Assembly: GCA_018398765.1 (NCBI GenBank)
Contig: JAHBMJ010000209.1
Span: forward strand, 1 to 53,957
Source of the DNA: Chromera velia
Lineage: Eukaryota; Sar; Chromeraceae
DNA length: 53,957 nucleotides
Reading direction: 5' to 3'
Below the pieces are notes generated by a model, which was not told where the DNA came from, did not search any database, and saw nothing but the letters and a program-made list of their open reading frames with translations. The position numbers and the translations under genes are program-made. Shown piece after piece: positions 11,752 to 28,500 of this stretch (position 1 is its first letter; every line of letters begins with the position of its first letter).

Positions 11752-13400
11752 GCCCGCTCCTCCCTTCCTTCGCCCTCTGTCATGAATCGGCAGTTACCGA
11801 GCTTGTTTGGGTGAGGCTGCCGCTTTTGTGCTTGGAAAGCCTGTGTACAGACAGAAAGAGCATAGGGCGGCAGGACGTCCATTAAGACGATCGATCGGAG
11901 AGAGGGGAAAGAGGGAGGGTGGGGTTTCGCACGCTGCTTGGACTTTTGTTCGCATGCCTACGTGCCTGTCCAGGTAGAAGTCTTTCTGCTTGGGCAGTTC
12001 TTTTTTGTTTCTCGTCTGCACCTATTCACCTCCTGCTTCTGTCGCGTCGTTTGCCTGCTTCGTTGAGTGACTGCATATAGATGTGCTTTTTCTTTGAATG
12101 TGACTGAATGCTTTCGTATTCGGGCAGGCGGGGAGGGAAGGGTTGCGTTTTTGGACATCCACAGTAAGCGTGGCAAATCGTCTGCCGTCTAACAGGACGT
12201 TTCGGTAGGAGGGGTGGAAGCGGATCCTATTTAAAAAAGAGAATGCAAATGGCTGGAAACCGAATGGCCTTCCTGTGTTGGAGAGACTTTTTATCGCAAA
12301 AGGGAATTTGAGAGACTGAAGGAAGAACCGGGAGGGAGCCTGGATGTGAAGGTTCTTGCAAAGACAGTGAAAGCATGTATGGGGGGGGGGGAGGCGTTGC
12401 GTTTGGAACTTCCTTTCTGTCACTCCCTCCTCACCCCTCCTCTTCACGAGAGAGCGCAAGAAAAGCAATCCAGGTGAGACTTTTTTGTCTCAACGTCAGT
12501 CTTTCTGTCGACTTGCTCCAATGCATCCAGAGAAGAGACAGAGAGAATGAAAATGGAACATTGAATGGAGAATTCAATAACCAATTCACCTTCCTTGTCT
12601 GCACGGACGTCTGTCTCATGTAGCACCACTTTACTGAAGAAGGAGACAACAAAGGAATGCAGGAGTCAGGCAGTGCAAACTGAGGCGCGATGATCAGAAA
12701 GAAGAGCGAGAAGGTCCCCTTTCTGCCTGCCTACCATCTTGTCGTACTCTTCTCTTCACTCTAGAGGCAGGCCTCGATCGATCGATCATGCGATCACGAC
12801 TTTCGAAAGGGACCGATTCGACGAAATCACAGAAAGAAGAATTCAGAGGCAGCTAGAGCAACAGACAGGCTGTGCGTCCTCATTTTCCTTCATGCTGTTT
12901 GTCTGCCTGCCTGTTTGTCTTTCTGCCTTTCCGTCCGTCCGTTTGTTTGTCTATGCCGTCTGCCCGTCTGTCTCCTCCTTAGGCACCTGTTTATCTGTCT
13001 CTCAGTCTGTCTCTCTTGCTGTCTCAAAAAAAATTTATTTTATATATGAGACAGAGTCCGCCTGCCAGGTGGAAGATTTTTGTGCCCGCCTTCCTCCAAG
13101 CCTGCCTGCCTGCCGACCTGCGTTGCAGCATCGCCTGGCCTCCTGCCTCCGGAATGTGAGCTTGTCTCGTCTGTCCGTGGGGGAGTGGAAGACGGGTGCA
13201 TGCGAGTCACCGTTCTTGACCCATCTTTTTGATCGCCTCAGCTGCATGGGAGACGTGGCGCGATCCTTACACAACAAACTCAGAGATAGAGGAGGAAATG
13301 AATGGAAGAGGGAAATGGGGGCAAGCCGGGGAATCAGGTGTGGGGAAAGGAGTCAAAAGACTATCGAAGTCGTTTTCATCAGTTGCGTTAATTCTGAATT
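11752..13400. other. Non-coding stretch downstream of gene B
   Basis: No gene supported. It probably contains the 3' untranslated region of gene B. The one long plus-strand frame (12739-13407) consists largely of CTGT/CTGC-type repeats translated as Cys/Val/Leu/Ser and shows no domain. Confidence 0.5.
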
Positions 13401-14859
13401 GATCTAAATTAAAATGAAGCGGTTCGAACCTATTTATTTATCAACGTTGATGTTGAAAGAGCGCGATGTATCTTGGAACGCCATCTTTTATGAAGCCTCT
13501 TCATGCAGGTTTCCTCCACTCGATCAGTCTGACTCAGAATCCCATGCTCAGTCCCTAGGCTCAGTCCATTGAATCGGCGATTTTGAGAACGCTGCCACTT
13601 CTTGTGTCAGTCTCAACTGACTCATGCCTTAATCTACGCTTTACCTGTATAAATTAAATTTTTATTAAATTTATTTAAATTGATATATTGTTAAACTTCT
13701 CATGCATACCCTCTTATTTTTCATGTTTACCAGTACGCCAGTTATCATTAATTAATTGATTTCATTCGACGAATCATCAATAATTATATGTGATTAATTC
13801 GTATTATGTATATTTATATACTAACGTTTTCATATTCGGGCCTAAGCAACTGTTGGTTCAATTATACTATATAATATCTTAAGATATATAACGTTTACCT
13901 AGTCATTTACCTAGTCATTTACTTAGAATAGGATAGGATAAGATAGGATTTTATGTTCCAGGAATCTCTGCGGTCCACCAAAGGTGTTTAATCACGGAAT
14001 ATATCTATTCACTAGTTACTCACTTCAAAAGTAATATAATCAGGAATATATTCAAGAATATATTCCTAAATTAATGAAGACCCGATTTTTGATGCAATAT
14101 GTACAATCGGCTATTCGGCTTCGAATGCATGCACTAATGGCCGCAGCCGCTAGTAGGAGCGGTGGGCCGCGCCAGCGCGTGTATGGCTGGCCCGGGCTGC
14201 ATGAGCTGGGCCATGCATGCAGTGCACTGGATATGCACAAGCCTCTAGGCTACTCCCAAAACATTTGTTTTTATAACGTAAAAAAAAAAACCACGCACCA
14301 TTAGAATGACTAAAGGTATTAAAGACTAGTAAGAATCAGACTTTGGCTAATTAATCACTTTATTCAATCATATTCAATCACTTCATGGGATAATTAAATA
14401 TATTCTAATCACAAGTGACTAAACACCTTTACGGTCCACTGCCAGGTATCGGCTTAGTCATTTACACAGTCATTCAGCCACTGTCAACATCTATCAACAT
14501 CCTACTACCTAGGTTTTTTGTGAATATTGACTAATTTAGGCACTAACAGTAAATTGGGTAGTTCACTAAGGTTCTAGCTAAGGTTATATATTCGGAACAG
14601 TCTAGGGAACAGTGAACTTTATAATGATAAAGGCTTTGTCAATTAATGATCAAATCATTCTATAGACTGAAATTAAGTACGTTGTAGAATTAATTGAGAA
14701 TTAAACTCGGATACATGCACTCTTTATCAGATTCTACGATATGTTTCCTAGTATGTTGCGCACCCTAGCCTGCATGACAGTGCATGTACCCTAGACTAGA
14801 TTGCAGTTTCACTACTACATGCAACGTCAATAATCAATTATCATCCTGGTTATCATCAA
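13401..14859. other. AT-rich repeat island
   Basis: Strongly AT-rich sequence with no supportable gene. It contains a second copy of the AGGAT/TTTATGTT/CGGTCCAC repeat (13929-13979), CGGTCCACTGCC again at 14432-14443, and a GC-rich patch flanked by ATGCATGCA motifs (about 14126-14220). It bounds the nuclease-like ORF on its 3' side. Confidence 0.6.
13929..13979. repeat. Second copy of the AGGAT/CGGTCCAC dispersed repeat
   Basis: AGGAT-type pentamers (13929-13950) are followed by TTATGTTCC and CGGTCCACC, matching the order seen at 1197-1258 but with substitutions between. Confidence 0.55.
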
Positions 14860-17800
14860 TTAGTCCTCATCAAAAAGTTTTTTCAGTTGTTTTCCAAAAC
14901 CCTGTTTGTCGGATGTGTTCAGTCTCCACTGAAGCAAACGAGCCATTCGGGTGTCTTTTTTTGCTACAGGCATCGACGAGAAGTCGAGCAGAAATCCTTT
15001 CAGTCCGCAACTTGCCTTCTCTTTTGACGCCACGACCCCTTCATCGATTAAAAATTTTTCTGGAATGACGTAAAGGTATCTTGCACTCTGCCACTTTTCT
15101 ATGATCACAAGAGGATCCTTCTCTGCGTCTGCTGGTTCTTTCGGAGGCTTCTGGGAAAGCGCACCCAGATTTTTTGGGGGGGCGACGAGGAGGAATTGGA
15201 AGTCGCCTTCCTCATAGGCTTTGACAACGCCTCGGACCTTTTTATTAAAATTCACGAATGCAACGCCGGGTCTCACGCGGCTTTGCGAAAACCAAATGGC
15301 GCTCTTGAGCTGCACCTTTTTGAAGTGGTGCGAGGCGTGTCTAAGTCGGATCTCAATGTCGTGAGGGTCGAATGGCCAAGGCGCCTCGCGTACGTCTACC
15401 CCCCCGGGTACGCTTTTGAAAAGCTCGAGACAGTTTTGCAGCATTCTCCACTCAGCAAGATGGTTGGGGCTCTGTTGGATCTGGAGGGTGTAAAGATCTC
15501 GGAGCCGACAAACACCCAATCCCTTTTTCGCTTGAAACCAAATCGAGCTCAATCGACGTCCAATGTGGGATCCTTCAAATCTCCCCTCCCCAAAGCTGCA
15601 TCTGGTTGCTTCTGTGTCATGCTTTCCATCCTCTGTGATCGCAAGCCTCCCTGGGCTACAAAAACTGTCAAAACGGCTACCAAAAAACACCCAAACCTTT
15701 GGTCTTTCAGGGACCTCTTTCTCGTGGACGGGCCTTTCCAAAGAAATGCAAACAACCACCCCCTCATAACCACGGACACCGTGAAAGTCCCAAAGAGCTG
15801 ACGTGGCTTTTTGCCATTTTGACCGGTGTGCCGTAGATTTCACCTGCACTGGCAGCCACAAGTCTTCTTTGCATCCGAAAGGTCGAACTGCAAGGTCCAC
15901 TCTCGCAAAGGGAGGGAGAGGGACAGCAGGCTCTTCCAGTCCATCAAAATGCTCTGAACGGGGGAAGCTTTGTCGGAGCAAGTGGAAAGCGGCCCTCTCT
16001 AAAGAATATCGATCACGGAGAGTGAGACCGTCAATCCCTGTACAAAGGGGGGGATCCCGAGGCGCGCTCTCTCTTGCTTCAAGCGTCAATGCGGCACTCC
16101 CTAGAGATGGCAACTGAGAATCAATTTGGGGGAGGGAGGTGCATCTCGGATTCGGCAAGAGCTTTGCTTGTGCTGGGAGGGACATTGTGATTTCAGCAAA
16201 GTTGGTGTGCTCATTTCGAATTGGAGTAGACGGCTGCGTCTCCTGACGGCCTTCACATTGAAGTGGGAGGACTCCACCGATCTTTTCGAGTTGCTGGCAT
16301 GTTGCTGACTTTCCTCTTGCTCCTCGGGACAGAAGGCGGGCAAAACGCTCCCCCGCAACTGCGGGAAACGAAGTGTCAAGTCGCCAGCGCAAGAAACGCA
16401 AGGGTCGGAATCCGCGTCTGAGAAACGATGTGTCTTGGAAGTCTAGACTGAGGCCTGTCACACCTCCGACCCGCTTCCTCTCTGATGACACGACACCAGA
16501 GTTTACTAGCTCCTCCATTTCAACAAAATAGAAATATCGCCACCGGTCCGTTGGCTCTGGGTCCAGCGGGCAGGTCGCTGTGTTATTCTTGCTTGTCGAG
16601 GGACGCATGTTCTGCGGGGGGCTCACCAAGAGGAAGTCAAAGTCAGCTTCATCATAGGGCATCGTCTGCATTGCCCTTTTCTTGCAGACTCGCACGTAAG
16701 CAAGATGACTTCTACCCGTCCAACTTGCGCTCTTCAGCTGTACCCTCTGCCAAGGCATGTCTGGACAGGCAGAGAGACGAATCTCAATGTCATACGGAAG
16801 GGACGCGTGAGGAGCGTCACGAACCTCAACCCCCCCTGGAACATGCCTGAAAAACTCTCGACACTTCTGAAGCATTTTCCACTCTGCAAGGTGATTTGGA
16901 CTTTGTTGGGTCTGAAGGGTTTGGAGGCTCTGCAACAGGTTTGGGCCCCTGCTAGCTCTTGCTTCTAACCATGCGAAAAGCAGTGCCTTCCCGATATGGC
17001 GGCCCAAGAACGAATCGTGATCAAACGTACATTGCTGCTGATCATATTTCCCCCCATCCGTGATGCGCAAGAATCCCCTGCCCTTCAGATTGTCGAAGGA
17101 GCCTCCGTGGAAGAGCCAAACCCTACTGCTCTGCATGTCTTCAGGCTCTTTTGCCAAGGACACGCACACGAGCGACATGCCTTTATAGCCGCAGACACGA
17201 TAAAATTCCCAAAACGGGGATCTTCCGGGACTGGCAGTGCACTCACGTCTCCCTCCCCTGGACTGAACCGTCGTTGACTTGACTTGGACAGGCAACCATA
17301 GATCCTCTGTACAGCCCACGGGCCTCACAGCCAGATCAGCCTTTGTGAAAGGAGAAAGGGGTATGGAGGGTTCTTCGAGACCTCCAAAGTCCGCCTTCGG
17401 CATGAAACTTTTTCGAAGTAACAATACCGCCCATCGCTCCACCTCGGCGCCTTTCGGGGGCCGTGCAGTGGTCGTCTCCCCGGTTGTGGCTGTCAAATCA
17501 ACCCCCACGGAAGAGTGTGTTTTAATTCCATCAGGTATCTGTCGTTGCGCTGCCCGGGAATGCGGAGGAAGGTAGACGGGCACTGGAACTGGAATGTCTC
17601 CCTTGCCCAGCTCTCTTTCTTGCGCCAGACGACCGAAGCTCTTTCCGTTCAAGCTCTCAGAAAAAGAAGAAAAACGCCTGTCTGTCAAAAATTGGCTCTC
17701 CCTGCAACTGTTAGCTCGGAATTGGAGCAAGCAAGACCGGCTTCCGAAGTCACGTGCAACAGACTTCAAACCGAGAGAGCGACAGCTGTAAGCAATAAAT

Positions 17801-17886
17801 TCAAATCTCCCCAAACATGCCTCGAAGGGTGAGCAATCCAAACGTAGCCCTTTTCGCCCCACCCGCCGTGCGAAGAGGCCGTACAT
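14860..17886 (-). CDS. Four-core PD-(D/E)XK-like nuclease-related protein, single uninterrupted ORF
   Basis: About 1,008 residues with no introns, from ATG at 17886 to TAA at 14860-14862. It is a tandem duplication of a module of about 480 residues (numbering from the Met two codons upstream). Each module has two cores that look like PD-(D/E)XK folds: a helix with conserved Glu, an Asp strand, then Gln-x-Lys-Ser 16-17 residues later. The pairs are D186/Q203-V-K205, D368/Q385-L-K387, D666/Q683-V-K685 and D845/Q861-L-K863. Shared blocks are DLAVRP, EDLWLPVQVKST, QSPNHLAEW and DIEIRL. A Gln in place of Asp/Glu is known in Mrr-type nucleases. The first ~90 residues are Arg/Ser-rich and contain RRFSS, resembling a mitochondrial presequence. 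Function is not known; a nuclease fold is inferred from motif order only. All neighbouring genes have many introns. Confidence 0.75.
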   Translation of the reverse strand: MYGLFARRVGRKGLRLDCSPFEACLGRFEFIAYSCRSLGLKSVARDFGSRSCLLQFRANSCRESQFLTDRRFSSFSESLNGKSFGRLAQERELGKGDIPVPVPVYLPPHSRAAQRQIPDGIKTHSSVGVDLTATTGETTTARPPKGAEVERWAVLLLRKSFMPKADFGGLEEPSIPLSPFTKADLAVRPVGCTEDLWLPVQVKSTTVQSRGGRRECTASPGRSPFWEFYRVCGYKGMSLVCVSLAKEPEDMQSSRVWLFHGGSFDNLKGRGFLRITDGGKYDQQQCTFDHDSFLGRHIGKALLFAWLEARASRGPNLLQSLQTLQTQQSPNHLAEWKMLQKCREFFRHVPGGVEVRDAPHASLPYDIEIRLSACPDMPWQRVQLKSASWTGRSHLAYVRVCKKRAMQTMPYDEADFDFLLVSPPQNMRPSTSKNNTATCPLDPEPTDRWRYFYFVEMEELVNSGVVSSERKRVGGVTGLSLDFQDTSFLRRGFRPLRFLRWRLDTSFPAVAGERFARLLSRGARGKSATCQQLEKIGGVLPLQCEGRQETQPSTPIRNEHTNFAEITMSLPAQAKLLPNPRCTSLPQIDSQLPSLGSAALTLEARESAPRDPPLCTGIDGLTLRDRYSLERAAFHLLRQSFPRSEHFDGLEEPAVPLPPFARVDLAVRPFGCKEDLWLPVQVKSTAHRSKWQKATSALWDFHGVRGYEGVVVCISLERPVHEKEVPERPKVWVFFGSRFDSFCSPGRLAITEDGKHDTEATRCSFGEGRFEGSHIGRRLSSIWFQAKKGLGVCRLRDLYTLQIQQSPNHLAEWRMLQNCLELFKSVPGGVDVREAPWPFDPHDIEIRLRHASHHFKKVQLKSAIWFSQSRVRPGVAFVNFNKKVRGVVKAYEEGDFQFLLVAPPKNLGALSQKPPKEPADAEKDPLVIIEKWQSARYLYVIPEKFLIDEGVVASKEKASCGLKGFLLDFSSMPVAKKDTRMARLLQWRLNTSDKQGFGKQLKKLFDED

Positions 17887-18172
17887 GATCAAGTTTGGAC
17901 AGAGGGTAGGTTGGTGGCTTCGATCGCAGAAAAAGAACGGTGGTTTTTCAATTGTTCCAGACTCAAGTAGTCGTGGGTTACACGGATCTCAGTTGGCGAG
18001 AGCGTATCCCAAGATTCATCAAGCCCGACCGTCTCGACAATTCTCGACATATACTGACTGTGGACGTGTTGATGCAACTTCGACTCATGCTCTGAAGCGA
18101 TCTATTAAAGACATCAAGCACATCGATATTGATGCTTCGTATGTCTTGAATCCAGATTCTTCCAGATATTGA
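17885..18172 (+). CDS. Doubtful small ORF, head-to-head with the nuclease-like ORF
   Basis: A 95-residue frame with many basic residues and a RQFSTY motif that would suit a mitochondrial presequence, ending at TGA before 18173. Its ATG shares the CATG palindrome with the start of the minus-strand ORF. On the opposite strand, 18077-17889 is also open (62 codons) and ends 2 nt before the big ORF's ATG. Only one strand can be real, and neither may be. No family recognised. Confidence 0.2.
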   Translation: MIKFGQRVGWWLRSQKKNGGFSIVPDSSSRGLHGSQLARAYPKIHQARPSRQFSTYTDCGRVDATSTHALKRSIKDIKHIDIDASYVLNPDSSRY

Positions 18173-18491
18173 GTGCAATTTGTTGACCAATCATGTCCAA
18201 TCTTCTCCCGCCAATGTGACACTTCTTGCACATTGAATTTTGTCTCAAGAGTGACAAAACAAAAAGTTTGTGTACTCCCGCCCCTATATGCAGCCCTATA
18301 TACCCGCCCTCCCTGTAATCCGAACCACGTCGGCGCGCAATGCGCGCGCCCACTCTCGTGCATGTGCATGCAATATTAATATGATGCAATTATATAACGG
18401 GATACACCCAACCAGTTGGGTGAGTGCCTCGGGGGGCCATTTAGGGGGTCGGCCATATAATTTGATTGCATGTTGGGCATGTCTTGCCTGC
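18173..18491. promoter_or_regulatory. Upstream region of the nuclease-like ORF
   Basis: Contains TGCATGTGCATGCA (18359-18372), a GCGCGCAATGCGCGCGC-type palindromic patch (about 18333-18350), and TATAT-containing stretches at about 18284 and 18297. Possible promoter of the minus-strand ORF. No gene seen. Confidence 0.35.
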
Positions 18492-18514
18492 AATGCATGC
18501 ATGGGCAAATGGCG
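18492..18514 (+). repeat. Left 23-bp direct repeat flanking the inserted gene C copy
   Basis: Begins AATGCATGCATGG and ends ATGGCG. It is identical over 23 bp to 19421-19443. Neither flank of the source copy at 24197-25102 has it, so it behaves like a target-site duplication. Confidence 0.85.
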
Positions 18515-19420
18515 ACTGTTGTCAAACGAACAATCCCCATCTGTTCCTGATTGACTGGTGGAAGAAGGAGTACATCCCCAAATTTGAAGAAGAGAGAAAA
18601 GCCAGGACAGAGGGAAACCCCCCCTCTTGTTGCGACCCAGATGACAACGTCGAGTTCTGGTTCAACTGGGCAGACGAGACCTGGAGGTCAGGCAAGTGGA
18701 CAGTCGCCCTCCTGGAGGGACTCTTCAGGCATGAGGACCCGAAGTGGGGCGGCCCGCCCCCAGTGCAGCAGGGCATCTGAGCAGCAAGGCGCCACAGGGG
18801 TCGGCCATGCTGCCCCGTCATTGGGGGGATGCCGGGTCTCCTCGATTGCCTTTGAAAGTCCGCGTCTTTCTCGAAAATGCAAAAAAAGAATATGAATTTT
18901 ATGATGCTGCAGATGGGCGCTGTTCTACACGTCTATGGACCTGTCCATCACCTGAACCGTTGCATATGTATTTGCAAACGTACGTACACCAATTCGATGG
19001 CTTGACGGTTTGTATGCCGGAAGTTTTTTGGTAGTGAGAGTGTGTATCGATTCAACGCTCGTCACTGTTTGGGTAATGAAATTTTGCTCCTCTTCATCGT
19101 TGAGTATCAAATCGCTCGATCTTGCTTTATAACAAAACGATTTGCAAATGACTCTTTAGAATATATACTAAATGCTAGTAGACTAAATACATAATAATCT
19201 GCACTTATTATTATAATCATCATCATGATTATTTGAATTATTATTGATCGGTTTATAGGCAATCATACAATGCATGAGTCTATGAGATCACCATTATTAT
19301 AATCGGTTTATAGGTTATTATGCAATCCATGAGTCTAGGACCTAGTCTAGGACAATGCTTTATTACCTGTTTGCCAGACCTGCATGATATAGCGGGGGGA
19401 GGGGGCTTCTGACCCGGCTT
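18515..19420 (+). pseudogene. Partial copy of gene C last exon and 3' flank
   Basis: These 906 bp match 24197-25102 at a constant offset of 5,682 with four substitutions that I can find (about 99.6% identity) and no indels. The copy starts inside the last exon of gene C at the codons for CCQTNNPHLFL, keeps the frame open to the same TGA at 18778-18780, and continues through about 640 bp of 3' flank. It lacks the earlier exons, start codon and any glycosyltransferase core, so it is not a functional gene. One coding substitution gives Thr where gene C has Ala. There is no poly(A) tail at the right end. Confidence 0.9.
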
Positions 19421-19443
19421 AATGCATGCATGGGCAAATGGCG
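19421..19443 (+). repeat. Right 23-bp direct repeat flanking the inserted gene C copy
   Basis: Identical to 18492-18514. Removing one repeat and the 906-bp block would restore a continuous ancestral sequence running into GGGGCCACGGCAACG. Confidence 0.85.
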
Positions 19444-19974
19444 GGGGCCACGGCAACGTGCGCAAAATATGCTTTTCGGGACCGCGCATGAACACATATA
19501 TTAATATATATGCAGTTAACTCTGTGCGAGTTATTTGAGGGACAGTATATAATATTAATATAATGCGATCGCGGCTCCGTGCGAGTTGCTTGAGGGGCAC
19601 ATTTTGGAATTTGGGCGACACCGATCGACCGTTGCGGAGACAGAACCGAATCCCCCCCAAAAAATGAAAAAATGCGTTATGCGGATGCGTGCGATCTCAG
19701 GGCCTCTCGGCTGATCTCAGCAGAGCTGAGCTGCCCCCCGAGGCGATGGTTCTGCATGCATGCATGTATACGCATGTCAGTCTGCAGCTACATTTGCTTG
19801 ATCGAACAGATAGAAAGCAACCTTCCACGAATGCTTTGGACACAAACTTATTTCGTACGGTGATCAAAGTCACAACAGTCTTCTTCGTGCTTTCTGTAAA
19901 CCGTTGGGCCTGTCGACACCGTCAGAAAGCTGCAGACACTCTCATTCAGTCTCGATCGTCCTCTGTTGTTTCCA
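19444..19974 (+). promoter_or_regulatory. Upstream region of gene C
   Basis: Contains an imperfect 55-bp-spaced repeat of GTGCGAGTTxxTTGAGGGxC (19520-19544 and 19575-19600), a TATATAATATT stretch at about 19546, and TGCATGCATGCATG (19753-19766), about 210 bp before the ATG. Likely promoter and 5' leader. Confidence 0.45.
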
Positions 19975-22900
19975 ATGAAGGTCAGACATCTTTTAGCCGG
20001 CCTGGCGATCAGCGCACTCGCAGCAGTGGCAACGGTGAACAAGGTCGGGAAAAGGGCTTCACTGTACTTTAGAAAGCTCCATCTTGCTACATGGGGTGCT
20101 CCCCAGCCGATCAAAAGTGCAAACTCCCGCGTTTTCTATACATGCTCCTATATATAAGACGATACAAACGCATGCACTTATATTTGCAGGAATGCACACC
20201 TCCCGAGTCCGAGTTCTGCGTGGCACGTTCGGGTGTTGTATCCATCTCCTCACTGCGTGCCAGTGGTGCCCTTTCTGATGAGATGACATGGGAGGAGAAG
20301 ACGAAGTTGATTGTCGACTCCAACGAGGACTTCCTTCAGAGGGCCAGGGAGAAGCCAATCACGAATGCAACACTCGTGTCTGCCCTGTTTGACTTGGGAC
20401 GGGACAAACTGGAAAGGCCTTTCGAAGAATATTTGAACCGATTCAGGAACTTCCTCACCACCCGCATCCCCACAATTCTCTTTCTCGATATCAAACACAA
20501 GACAGAGCTAGAGAAACTTGTCGACGAACTCCTCCCCCCCGAGCAAAGACAGAGAACCCTCATTCTCTGGAGGTCCTCCGACTGGGTCAAGACAAACTTC
20601 CCCTGGATGTCGGAGGTCCAAAGCCTGCAGGAGAGCCCAGAGTGGAACGGCCTGGCGGGTTGGCTTTCCGGTTCGCCCCAGGCAAAACTCCCCTTGTACA
20701 ACCCTCTAGTGATGTCCAAGATGGTCATCACGGCCATGGCAGCTGAGTGGAATCCCTTCCACACCGACTCCTTTCTGTTCGTGGATGCGGGACATGCGTG
20801 TAACGGAGGCCCGCCCCTCACACAGGAGCTTTTGATGCCCTGGTTCCGAAAACTGTTGAAAGTGCAGGTAGGTGTGTTGTGACGATGGGATTGTATCAAA
20901 GGGGCACAAAAACGAAAGAAAGGAGAATTGGCATTGAGAGAACAAGCAAACACCCGGTCCAGAGTGGATTGTTGGATGCCAGGACGACCTGAAAGTACGA
21001 ATGCAAAAAGGCATTACTTAAGAGAGACGAGAGAAACTCATTAATTTTCTGCATGAAATTCCCTGTCTCCTTCCTTCCCTTTTTCATTTCTCCACAAGGC
21101 AATTTCATTCTTCCTTTCTGCGGGGGCCCTCTCCATGCAGGGAGACTGGCACACCCCTGGAGCCCTGCCGGTCAATCTAGACTCCCACGGGAAGGACGGG
21201 CTCTTCGTCACGTTCTTCGACTATGGACCCGACCGAGAGGTGCATGGGGGGGGGGGGAAGGGGGNNNNNNNNNNNNNNNNNNNNNNNNNNNNNNNNNNNN
21301 NNNNNNNNNNNNNNNNNNNNNNNNNNNNNNNNNNNNNNNNNNNNNNNNNNNNNNNNNNNNNNNNNNNNNNNNNNNNNNNNNNNNNNNNNNNNNNNNNNNN
21401 NNNNNNNNNNNNNNNNNNNNNNNNNNNNNNNNNNNNNNNNNNNNNNNNNNNNNNNNNNNNNNNNNNNNNNNNNNNNNNNNNNNNNNNNNNNNNNNNNNNN
21501 NNNNNNNNNNNNNNNNNNNNNNNNNNNNNNNNNNNNNNNNNNNNNNNNNNNNNNNNNNNNNNNNNNNNNNNNNNNNNNNNNNNNNNNNNNNNNGGGGGGG
21601 GGGGGGAACGGGGGGTCCATCAATTGATGTTCTCAGTGGGTTGGTTGGTTGGAGTAGGTTGGCTATGTGCTGTGCAACCCCATCCGGCAGGCACGCGCTG
21701 TTTCAAAGTCATGAATGAAAGTCCTGACGTAGGGGGCAAAGGTGTCCTTCTAAAACGTCGCTTGGGGAGGCAGCTCCTCTCTCTTTCTCTTTCCTGCATA
21801 TGCAGAGTGTTACACATACACACACACACACGCGCGCGCGCAGAGGCAAAAGAAGAAAAACAAAGAACGGAGTTTATGGAAACAAGCAAATTCAGCTCCA
21901 CCTTTTCGGCATCTCATTTGTTGTACATGCAGGTACACGGGTTCAAAGCAGAAGAGTTCAAACAGTGGATAGGGGACCCTCATGCCCAGAACGTGAAGGT
22001 CGGAAGAGGGGGGGTGTTCGGAGGGCGGCGTGAGGTTCTGTCTGTGGTCTCGGAGCTCTTCAAGGTGTTTCTGCATCACACCCTCTCCGAAGGTCTGATG
22101 GGCACAGAGGAGAACCTGCTCTCCCTTCTTGCCTACAGAGTTCCGTCCCTTGTTGCCAGACACAACCTGGAGGGCCACTGCACTTTCTGGAACCTCCTTG
22201 AGAGAGTGAGTGCAGCCTTTCTTTATAACTTCGTCGAAATTTCGTTTTCTCTCTGCGTCGCAGTCCTCTGCTTCGATCAGGAACCCTTCGGTGCACACGG
22301 ATTTCCATTTTTCTCTGAGCACAGTTCACTATTTCTGGTGCCAGCGTCGCCTTTCTTCTGCACAGTTACCAGCTAGGTCCGTACATTTCTTCAGTGTGTA
22401 CCGGTAGCAGTCTGTTCGAATGCCCCACCAAAATGTTGTCTTTGCGACATTAGCAAGTGCAGACAAATTTGTGTGTTGATTTGCCTGTACTGCTTGCCCT
22501 TTGCCTCCCTTCATTCAACTTGCAGGAGGGAAAGAGGATGGGGACTCTTGACAGAGACAGTCTGCTCTCCTTCCGACAATGCCACAGAGACGCGGGGTGG
22601 CCCCGTTCCATCTTGGCGGGCCCCGACGGCGACAAGATGCACGTCCACAGCGACAGAGCCAGGCAGGCAGAGGAGATTTCGAAAGGGACAGCTGAGGAGA
22701 GTGCAAACAAGGAAGCCGAGAAAGAGACACCAGAGCTGCAGGTTGCGTTCTCCCGTCGGATGGAAGGTCGGTTGGTCAGCTGCTTGGGATGATTTCTTAT
22801 AGGTCCCAACTTTTGGTTTCTGCAAGATTCGGTGCTTGGTGGGGAGTTGCAAGAGTGAAATGAACAATCAAGCTGCGCGTGATATCTCGTCGATGGTTTC

Positions 22901-25569: not shown

Positions 25570-28500
25570 TCACTTTGCAACATCTGTCCTTGTCATTGCC
25601 TCAAAGATTCCTGCAGAGTCTGTGAAGAGCTCTTTCACTTCCACTTCCTCCAGCATTTTGGAGAACAGCTGGAAGTCACAAAGCATTCCGAAGCCCCGCC
25701 CCCCCCTTCTATGATTTCCGATTGCCACCACATCTTCCTTGCACCCCCCTGCCGTCTGCCCAACCAGCTCTGCGTCCACAAAGAATTTCGTTACAGCCGG
25801 ACCACCACCGGGGGGAGAACCGAAGGTAACAGCCAAATGCCGCCATCCTGCTTCGGCTGACCCAATTTCATACCCACTAGGTACGTGCTCCCAGTGTCCC
25901 TCCTCCCCCTTCTCCCACGACTTTGCCTTCTCTGCCTTCACCTTCCTACCCCACCCCAGTGACTGCCTGTCCCCTCCTACGCCTATGTGATACCCTTTAA
26001 TCCCGCTCATCAACGACCTCCAGGGCGACTCTACATCTTTCGTGCCTCCCTTCTTCTTCCCCTTTGCCTTTTCCTTTGCTTCCTCTGCCTCGCCCTCGAG
26101 GGGAAGGAGGGGAAACCGGACCCACACGGTGACTGTCCACTGCCCAAAGCGGGACAATTTGATAGGGGGGTCCAACAGCAAGGAGGCATCGAGGAAGTAA
26201 GAGGGGCCAGGGAAGTTCATCCCGACACACAAAAGAGGGCGGTCTGCAAGGTCTGCGTCTGTTTTGTCCAGCATATACTGGGCAAAGGCGCAGGAGCCGA
26301 GAATGACGGGACCAAACCGGTCGTCGAATCCCTGCTTGCGGTAGAGGCCGATATGGGCCTCTGGGAGTGGAAGTGTGTGGAGAGTTCGGAAGTCATTCAT
26401 TTGGGGGGACTCTAGAAGTACTGCGGAGGCAAAAGTACGGGTGGCCCCGTAAAGCCGTTGTGCCTCTGTTTTGATCTTGGAGACTGCCCTCTCGTACCTC
26501 TCTGGGAATTTCGGATCAAAATCGTCCTTTGAGAGGTTCTCTTCGGGACTCTTCCGACGAAAGAACACACGGTAGTCGCACCGTGCAGTTCTGCAGATAT
26601 GGGGGGTGAAGGAAGTATGCACACAAAAATGCATGCATGCCTATCCGGACATGTACGGAGGGAGACATTCAGTTCATCCGTACGGACCAAACGTCAAGCC
26701 ATCGATGCAACCATGTCTTCAAAGCAGCAATTTCCCGTCTCCTTTGACTTACGCGCCAATGCAAAAAATGCAAAAACGACGAAGAGGACACACACTGACA
26801 TTCACATGAACCTCACACATTACTAGAAAAGCAGAGATTTGGATGAGAGAAAGGCAGGCATGCAGACATACGAAAGGACGGACCTGATTTTCAAAGCGTC
26901 TCTGAATCCAAACACAAACGGCTTGAGCATTTTCTGCCAAACAGAGGCAAATTCTTTCTGCTGCACCGCCTCAAACGCCTCTCTGTATCTGATGGCCACT
27001 TCCTGAGGACGCAGCGACAACTTCCAAACGCTGAGAGATGCGAAGGCCCCCCAAGGATTGTCACCCTTTGAGAGTCTGTTGCCAATGCAAACAAGGGACC
27101 CCATGGCCATCCAGGAAATCCGCCCGACCGGTTTTCCGTCAAAGTAGAAATGCTGACGGGAATTCCGACCCACCACGACGAGGTGATGCCACCCTGGGTC
27201 CTGAGTTGAGAGGGAGAAGTTAGGAAGGAAGAGACCCTGTCGTTTCTGTAAGAGCCGTCTCTGTGTCTCGGCCTCTGCTCCTGTAGAGAACTCGGAGGAT
27301 TCGTCTGCCGGGTGTTCCTCTTCCACGTGTTCATCCTCGTATTCTCTCTTCCTCTCTGGCCTCGAGGGGGATTCTTCCAAAACGTCTCTCCAGCCTCCGA
27401 GGGACCCTCCGTCAGCGCTCGCACAGATGGGCGCGTGGTTTTTGTCAGTCCAACAAAGGAAGTGGGGCGTCTTCTCGTCTGTCATTGGAAGACGAATCCA
27501 TGTCTCCAGAGACCAACAGTCGGGGTACCTGGCGGTCTCTCTGGGGGACGGTTTCTCGAAGGGATGTGGCTCTCTGTCGGGGGGTCGGCGTGTTTCTTTT
27601 CGCGTTGACTTGCCGACTGACAAAGCAACTGGAGGCTCTATTTTGATGTGCAGGTTAGAGTTCTTTGACCGCCGCGCTTCTGCGTGACTGGAAGTGACCA
27701 GGGCAGAGTGGGGGTCTTCCTCTTCGTCTGGACCCGGACAGGTGACAATATTGCCGGAAGGGGTGACTGTGAAGTCATCGGGGGTGACCGAGAGTTTTGT
27801 GTTCATACTTGAAAGAGCAAACGCGAGACGTCCACTAAGGGAGCGCGGCTCCATAGGAGGTCTGAGAGCTCGGAAGAGGTCAAAAACCAAAGCTGTGGGC
27901 ATGAAAACGTCGCTTGTCATTCTCTCCGTGTATCTCTCGTCATCCTTTTGCACCGAACCACCGAAATGGTCTTTCATCTCATTAACCTCTGGAAAGAAGA
28001 TCCGCATCTTTCGGACCACCTCCAAAGTCCTGTCCTCCCATCTGCGTGCGTCAAGAGCCTTGTTGTCCACCTCTGCGTACTTAATCAAGTCACTCACCTC
28101 AAATTTCTTCTGGGCCCCCTCAGTGCCTTTCTTGCTCATTGCCTGCGACTCACCCTCGTCGCTCCACTCTCCACTGGGCCTACCACCCGTCCTCTCCCAT
28201 TTGTCTTCGACGCCGAGCATCGCGCGGACCTGCACACATACACCGACAGGCTGTCTCTGCTACGCCTACACCAAAAGACAACAACCTGCTTCACCAGGCT
28301 CTATGAGAGGCAAGGCTACTATTGCACTATTCATCTGTCCCCTTGTTTCCTTTCTCTCTAGTGACACCTGGGAGAACGTTCACATTCCTCGTCACTGTTT
28401 GGCAAGGATACAGCACTCTCTTTCCCCCCCCCTGAGTGTTTATCCCTCTTGCATTGCCGATTGAAAAACCTGAAACTAAAGAATCCTAGAAAATGGACTA

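Follow-up and report, generated by a model that had tools for sequence, protein, structure and literature searches.

According to the available part of PMC3943268, homing endonucleases of the PD-(D/E)xK type form tetramers. The bacterial proteins of the I-Ssp6803I type (PDB 2ost) carry one core in about 140-200 residues, and I-Ssp6803I, PF11645 and PHROG 5018 share the motif order helix Glu, D, Q-x-K, W, YxxxDFDF, FYxxP. A second described group, the RAP-domain proteins (PF08373), is abundant in chromerids and apicomplexans, is associated with mitochondria and has a restriction-endonuclease-like fold, as far as the accessible text of PMC4501334 and PMC8190603 goes. Here we describe an intronless gene of Chromera velia, located on the minus strand of contig JAHBMJ010000209.1 (assembly GCA_018398765.1) in a window of 53,957 nucleotides, i.e., the whole stretch of DNA that was analysed. 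One of its core types, core B, shows the motif order of I-Ssp6803I; in contrast to the bacterial proteins, however, each module holds two divergent cores (A and B), and a chain contains up to two complete modules. The Chromera family further differs from the I-Ssp6803I group in being nuclear, in having intron-free modules and presequence-like N-termini, and in scoring below the Pfam cut-off. A RAP domain spans about 60 residues, whereas the Chromera modules keep a full D..QxK site. We consider it likely, with a probability of roughly 60%, that the gene belongs to a nuclear-encoded, mitochondrion-targeted family of single-chain, multi-core endonucleases domesticated from an I-Ssp6803I-type (PDDEXK_5) homing endonuclease. 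Its features are as follows.

14860..17886, minus strand: intronless open reading frame (ORF) for a predicted two-module (A-B-A-B) PD-(D/E)XK nuclease, 1,008 residues from the ATG plus stop (from ORF and motifs).
17656..17886, minus strand: putative mitochondrial presequence, the N-terminal 77 residues, Arg-rich and with RRFSS (from the sequence, and from N-terminal composition of the family against an internal-Met control).
17020..17457, minus strand: predicted core A of module 1, about residues 146-291, with E152, D186, Q203 and K205 (from conservation and likeness to core B).
16357..16935, minus strand: predicted core B of module 1, residues 320-512, with E337, D368, Q385 and K387, I-Ssp6803I-type (from profile, alignment and fold comparisons).
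15511..16032, minus strand: predicted core A of module 2, about residues 621-794, with D666, Q683 and K685 (from the module-module match and conservation).
14899..15510, minus strand: predicted core B of module 2, residues 795-998, with D845, Q861 and K863 (from the module-module match, alignment and conservation).

The stop-free frame runs from 17892 to 14860, starts with TTG and encodes 1,010 residues; the ATG is codon 3 (17886). Residue numbers of motifs and cores follow the 1,010-residue frame. The longest other ORF in the window starting with ATG, GTG or TTG encodes 526 residues. Four D-x15/16-Q-x-K-[ST] motifs start at residues 186, 368, 666 and 845, with D-to-Q spacings of 17, 17, 17 and 16. 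They alternate as A-B-A-B, motif A repeating after 480 and motif B after 477 residues. Among 10,000 residue shuffles of the protein, 9,680 contained no such motif, 309 contained one, 11 contained two and none more. In a two-sequence BLASTP, module 1 and module 2 share 42% identity across 386 columns (E 1e-94). An uninterrupted frame of about 1,000 residues, four motifs with these spacings and an A/B alternation with a period of about 480 residues had been claimed in the original prediction, which was made from the sequence of the window, and all three claims were borne out.

To place the gene within its genome (177.8 Mb, 4,040 contigs), we searched with the window protein, with a divergent member (L048) and with a more divergent one (L064). 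These searches gave 61 matches on 34 contigs (E<=10), 85 matches (E<=0.1) and 33 matches (E<=0.01), respectively. Pooled, they revealed no fewer than 56 gene places, spread over 54 contigs. These fall into three subfamilies and carry either one or two A-B modules. This count is a lower bound in which contigs C514 and C2507 are counted twice each, while a weak match at the start of C1700 (E 0.07) is omitted. Further copies and single-module relatives, which the original prediction had proposed to look for, are thus both present in the gene's own genome. Two complete modules in one frame were found in 12 loci (L001, L002, L003, L005, L006, L008, L016, L024, L029, L039, L041 and L043), and ten loci of the main set have a single module (L009, L010, L011, L013, L014, L021, L030, L038, L040 and L042), L021 with a weak remnant of another module as well. 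In L033, a partial module accompanies two that are nearly complete. Subfamily S3 comprises six places (C807, C3134, C2519, C2507, C1428 and C775). It matches the main family at E 9.6e-14, and its E values with the window gene are 0.004 for one module and 0.009 for the other. A genome search with PF11645 gave three matches, two of them on known family contigs and the third being L048, which is of the same A-B kind. No relatives were found when the family profile was run against viral contigs and genome contigs, and the whole window protein gave no match to phage in tblastn. Apparent fusions to large proteins (frames of 3,183 and 2,910 residues around two copies) were rejected, the frames being runs of N. 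Light-harvesting-domain matches in the genome number 46, which suits a chromerid when taken together with the RAP-domain matches, the genome size and the GC content of the window.

For the module alignment (A1) we used 43 near-complete modules from stop-free frames, with a mean pairwise identity of 43%; modules shorter than about 320 of the 385 query positions and stop-broken pieces were left out. L048, L063 and L064 were added later, giving 46 modules, in which L048 alone stands for the further S2 places of the L048 search and two of six places represent S3. All modules used lie within single open frames and are therefore uninterrupted by introns. In this alignment none of the 46 modules lacks the D, Q or K of either core; variability at these positions among homologues is what the original prediction had named as evidence against itself. 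The Glu of the upstream helix is found in 44 of 44 modules in core A (two gaps) and in 46 of 46 in core B. Both cores thus show the PD-(D/E)XK superfamily signature, D...(D/E/Q)xK after a helix Glu, and the invariance looks like that of selected, working nuclease sites. Within the family, core A is better conserved than core B (mean identity 49% vs 41%, 44 modules, S3 excluded).

Comparison with proteins of solved structure pointed to a specific relative of core B. The family profile gave two PDB matches at E<=10, the better one being 2ost (E 0.013), with D, Q-x-K and YxxxDFDF in register. A 72-residue stretch of 2ost used as query yielded 12 bacterial relatives (L051-L062), and profile-profile alignment of core B with these (hhalign) gave a probability of 96.5 and a score of 66.2; none of 100 column shuffles scored above 27.0, and the reversed alignment scored 14.6. 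In the joint alignment, E, D, Q, K, W and Y are invariant in 14 of 14 rows. Within this bacterial set, L051 has an E value of 5.8e-90 with 2ost and of 1.9e-54 with PDDEXK_5. PHROG 5018, annotated as 'unknown function', matches the window protein at E 1.5e-8 and 40 of the 43 modules at E<=0.1; for two bacterial homologues the values are 3.4e-19 and 3.7e-21. The best VIA fold match of core B is likewise 2ost. These profile and alignment comparisons show homology between core B and I-Ssp6803I (PDDEXK_5), a bacterial homing endonuclease of the PD-(D/E)XK superfamily. A resolvase-like enzyme of nuclear or plastid DNA repair or recombination, with an incidental N-terminal charge, is a highly improbable alternative, since the Z to Hjc lies far below that to 2ost (10.2).

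The bacterial relatives are 56-90% identical over the matched 72 residues, and their record titles name Synechocystis, Methylomirabilota, Nitrospirae, Omnitrophota, Uhrbacteria, Gemmataceae, Muproteobacteria, Bacteroidetes, Lewinella and Saprospiraceae. L051 matched 64 phage records at E<=0.1, and eight of the 20 listed are labelled just 'hypothetical protein' there. The phage family PHROG 5018 itself appears to be of the PDDEXK_5 / I-Ssp6803I type.

Core A resembles core B. Alignment of the two core profiles gave a probability of 87.1 and a score of 42.7, with shuffles reaching at most 21.2, and Glu, D and Q-x-K were aligned. The module is most simply read as a diverged duplicate pair in which core A has moved further from the ancestor than core B. 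Together with the 46 of 46 conservation of D, Q and K and the homology of core B, this likeness above shuffles supports the predicted tandem A-B-A-B layout of four PD-(D/E)XK-like cores.

Several results weigh against this reading and its derivation from I-Ssp6803I. For core A, the likeness to core B falls to a probability of 68.9 (score 36.6) when L048 and the S3 members are removed, and its profile gave no direct signal to the bacterial one (score 20.1, shuffles up to 21.4). A sub-threshold alignment, which is suggestive only, pairs VWLF..LRIT.GGK.D of core A with the bacterial FYVFP..IHLVE.DKRQR. Catalysis by core A is a step that we infer. For core B, the bacterial alignment is shallow (effective number of sequences, Neff, 1.9), the window protein alone found no nuclease among PDB sequences, and two S3 members gave no match to PHROG 5018 and one none to Pfam. 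The PF11645 gathering score of 26.1 bits lies above the window protein (14.9), the best genomic match (22.8) and L048 (20.6 bits). PDDEXK_5 was found in five of the 43 modules at E<=1 (best 0.005) and in L048 at 4.9e-4, all below the cut-off. Structure prediction had been proposed in the original prediction for each core, and the other outcome named there as refuting it, a lack of the PD-(D/E)XK fold in every core, did not arise. A model of core B (mean predicted local distance difference test score, pLDDT, 59.9) matches 2ost, a match that is partly circular because the underlying alignment included bacterial homologues, while a two-sequence AlphaFold run of the whole A-B module reached a pLDDT of 36 and was not used. 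In Foldseek, the core B model matched MepB (4lqe) best (E 2.3e-4), with 2ost behind it (E 0.013).

Alternatively, the genes could be selfish, free-standing homing endonuclease genes that spread through the nuclear genome, or they could encode the nuclease of a mobile element not yet recognised. In favour of this stand the kinship with a homing endonuclease and the many intronless copies, with stop codons within the match on 11 of the 54 contigs in the window-protein or L048 search (sequencing errors are possible). We regard this alternative as very unlikely in view of the history of the copies. The closest of the 43 modules share 79% protein identity, and no near-identical copies were seen. 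Seven close pairs had nonsynonymous divergence (dN) of 0.13-0.25, synonymous divergence (dS) of 0.68-0.97 and ratios of about 0.17-0.29 (NG86; the YN00 minimum of dS was 0.62). Seven of nine pairs were usable, one dS being not computable and one saturated, and three of the seven share members (L030, L038 and L040). We also compared flanks, using 1.5 kb per side for the window-protein loci and stretches of about 10 kb for 14 others, and removing pairs of 100% identity since the loci overlap. This gave 41 alignments at E<=1e-8, of which a single one, between the two C514 loci, was longer than 1 kb (87%, 1,066 bases) and is best read as a local duplication. L017 and L042 share 248 bases at 96% identity, and the remaining alignments are short or dispersed repeats by appearance. 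Old modules and purifying selection together argue for a maintained host family, and the set looks like a slowly duplicating one rather than an active element.

The module tree is consistent with this. First and second modules of the 46 cluster without forming two clean groups. Module-type changes number 5 each, compared to shuffled means of 13.6 and 10.6, and none of 500 shuffles was as low; well-supported branches force at least 4 changes. The first modules of L005, L024 and L023 stand beside second modules, and single-module genes nest among both module types. Sister genes (L003/L029, L001/L002 and L041/L043) pair alike in both modules, and the tandem module therefore predates at least these gene duplications, which also speaks against spreading selfish genes.

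Two observations on flanks may be added. L019 and L022, about 7 kb apart on C514, share about 1.07 kb of upstream flank, and the match of L019 holds a stop. Outside the family frames, L007, L009 and L037 have stretches of 317-512 bases in common (77-82% identity), with two occurrences in L037; by appearance these are ordinary dispersed repeats.

An Arg/Ser-rich start with RRFSS had been taken to suggest organelle import. We analysed the N-termini of 31 family members, counted from the first Met of the frame and including some from broken copies, against 264 internal-Met segments of the same proteins. The mean net charge of the first 40 residues is +4.97 compared to +0.56 in the controls, and a charge of at least +3 with two acids or fewer was found in 23 of 31 N-termini but in 22 of 264 controls. 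Arg-aromatic-Ser-like strings (RRFSS, RGFST, RQFST) occur in nine of 31, a count made without a control. These Arg-rich, acid-poor N-termini resemble mitochondrial presequences, and import into the mitochondrion is most likely, judged from composition. Against it stand the eight N-termini outside this combination of charge and acids, among them that of the window protein (net charge +4, three acids). The N-termini otherwise diverge strongly, yet the charge bias holds across them, which argues against an incidental charge on a repair enzyme; their likeness to organelle presequences argues against a mobile element. Import into a complex plastid would need a signal peptide with raised N-terminal hydrophobicity, whereas the mean 12-residue maximum is 0.26 in the family and 0.33 in controls, so a plastid enzyme is disfavoured as well. 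The readings offered originally therefore divide: an organelle DNA-processing protein and a domesticated selfish nuclease fit together, while selection, old copies, flanks and N-termini disfavour a mobile-element protein.

For a domesticated mitochondrial nuclease, the following course may be envisaged. An ancestral core would have duplicated and diverged into cores A and B of one module, the order of duplications being presumed; the module would then have duplicated in tandem, and one- and two-module genes expanded to the present places. The protein would enter the mitochondrion through its N-terminal presequence. Within one chain, cores A and B may pair and cleave nucleic acid, using the Lys and metal ions bound by E, D and Q. 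The four cores of a two-module chain may replace the I-Ssp6803I homotetramer, of which a one-module protein would be half. The likely substrate would be the mitochondrial genome, with site-specific cuts in scrambled, recombining mitochondrial DNA (mtDNA), the alternative being transcript cleavage. The mtDNA of Chromera consists of short linear molecules with cox1, a divergent cox3 and ribosomal RNA (rRNA) gene fragments, and a cox1-cox3 fusion transcript is apparently cleaved, as far as the accessible text of PMC8554336 goes.

The same mitochondrial nucleases might instead act on RNA, with paralogues trimming or cleaving particular transcripts such as the cox1-cox3 fusion transcript or rRNA fragments, by analogy with RAP-domain proteins, which are thought to act on organelle RNA. 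The large, divergent paralogue set with presequence-like N-termini, the mitochondrial gene content and transcript just described, and the abundance of RAP proteins in chromerids (available part of PMC8190603) would suit such a role; 18 RAP-domain matches lie elsewhere in the same genome. However, I-Ssp6803I, the nearest relative of solved structure, cuts DNA as a homing endonuclease, and Pfam gave no RNA-binding or repeat domain in the window protein (two weak matches) or in the 43 modules (eight families at E<=1, PF08373 not among them). We consider an RNA substrate unlikely. DNA is, we infer, most likely what the domesticated nucleases cut, and this step adds to the points weighing against our reading.

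Although the fold and its family are known already, the literature searched contains no report of the A-B module, of chains with four cores, of the nuclear expansion or of N-termini resembling presequences. The family was not mentioned in what was found, including the available part of PMC4501334, which does not by itself show its absence in print. Tentatively, and with considerable doubt, a chromerid might have made single-chain pseudo-tetramers from a bacterial tetrameric homing endonuclease, in more than 50 nuclear genes, and sent them to the mitochondrion, where paralogues would cut different sites and so create or process scrambled mtDNA and transcripts. For the origin of the broken, shuffled mitochondrial genomes of chromerids, dinoflagellates and coccidians, a large nuclear family of intact-looking, mitochondrion-type nucleases would provide concrete candidates. 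It would also be a case of a homing-endonuclease fold put to use by its host through repeated fusion of cores, until one chain carries four catalytic ones.

An AT-rich repeat island had been noted beside the gene. The AT-richness was confirmed, the adjoining 13001-15000 having 41% and 39% GC compared to about 50% in the window, but as to repeats, Tandem Repeats Finder revealed only three short arrays within 12000-22500, of which two have 12-mer units and the third a 16-mer unit. A transfer RNA scan of the window found nothing, and an Rfam scan found no family at threshold, group I introns included. Elsewhere in the window, two minus-strand ORFs (25570-26634 and 26823-28235) match Laminin_G_3 at E 5.9e-7, above the cut-off, and at 1e-5, just below it; they are perhaps exons of a single lectin-like protein.
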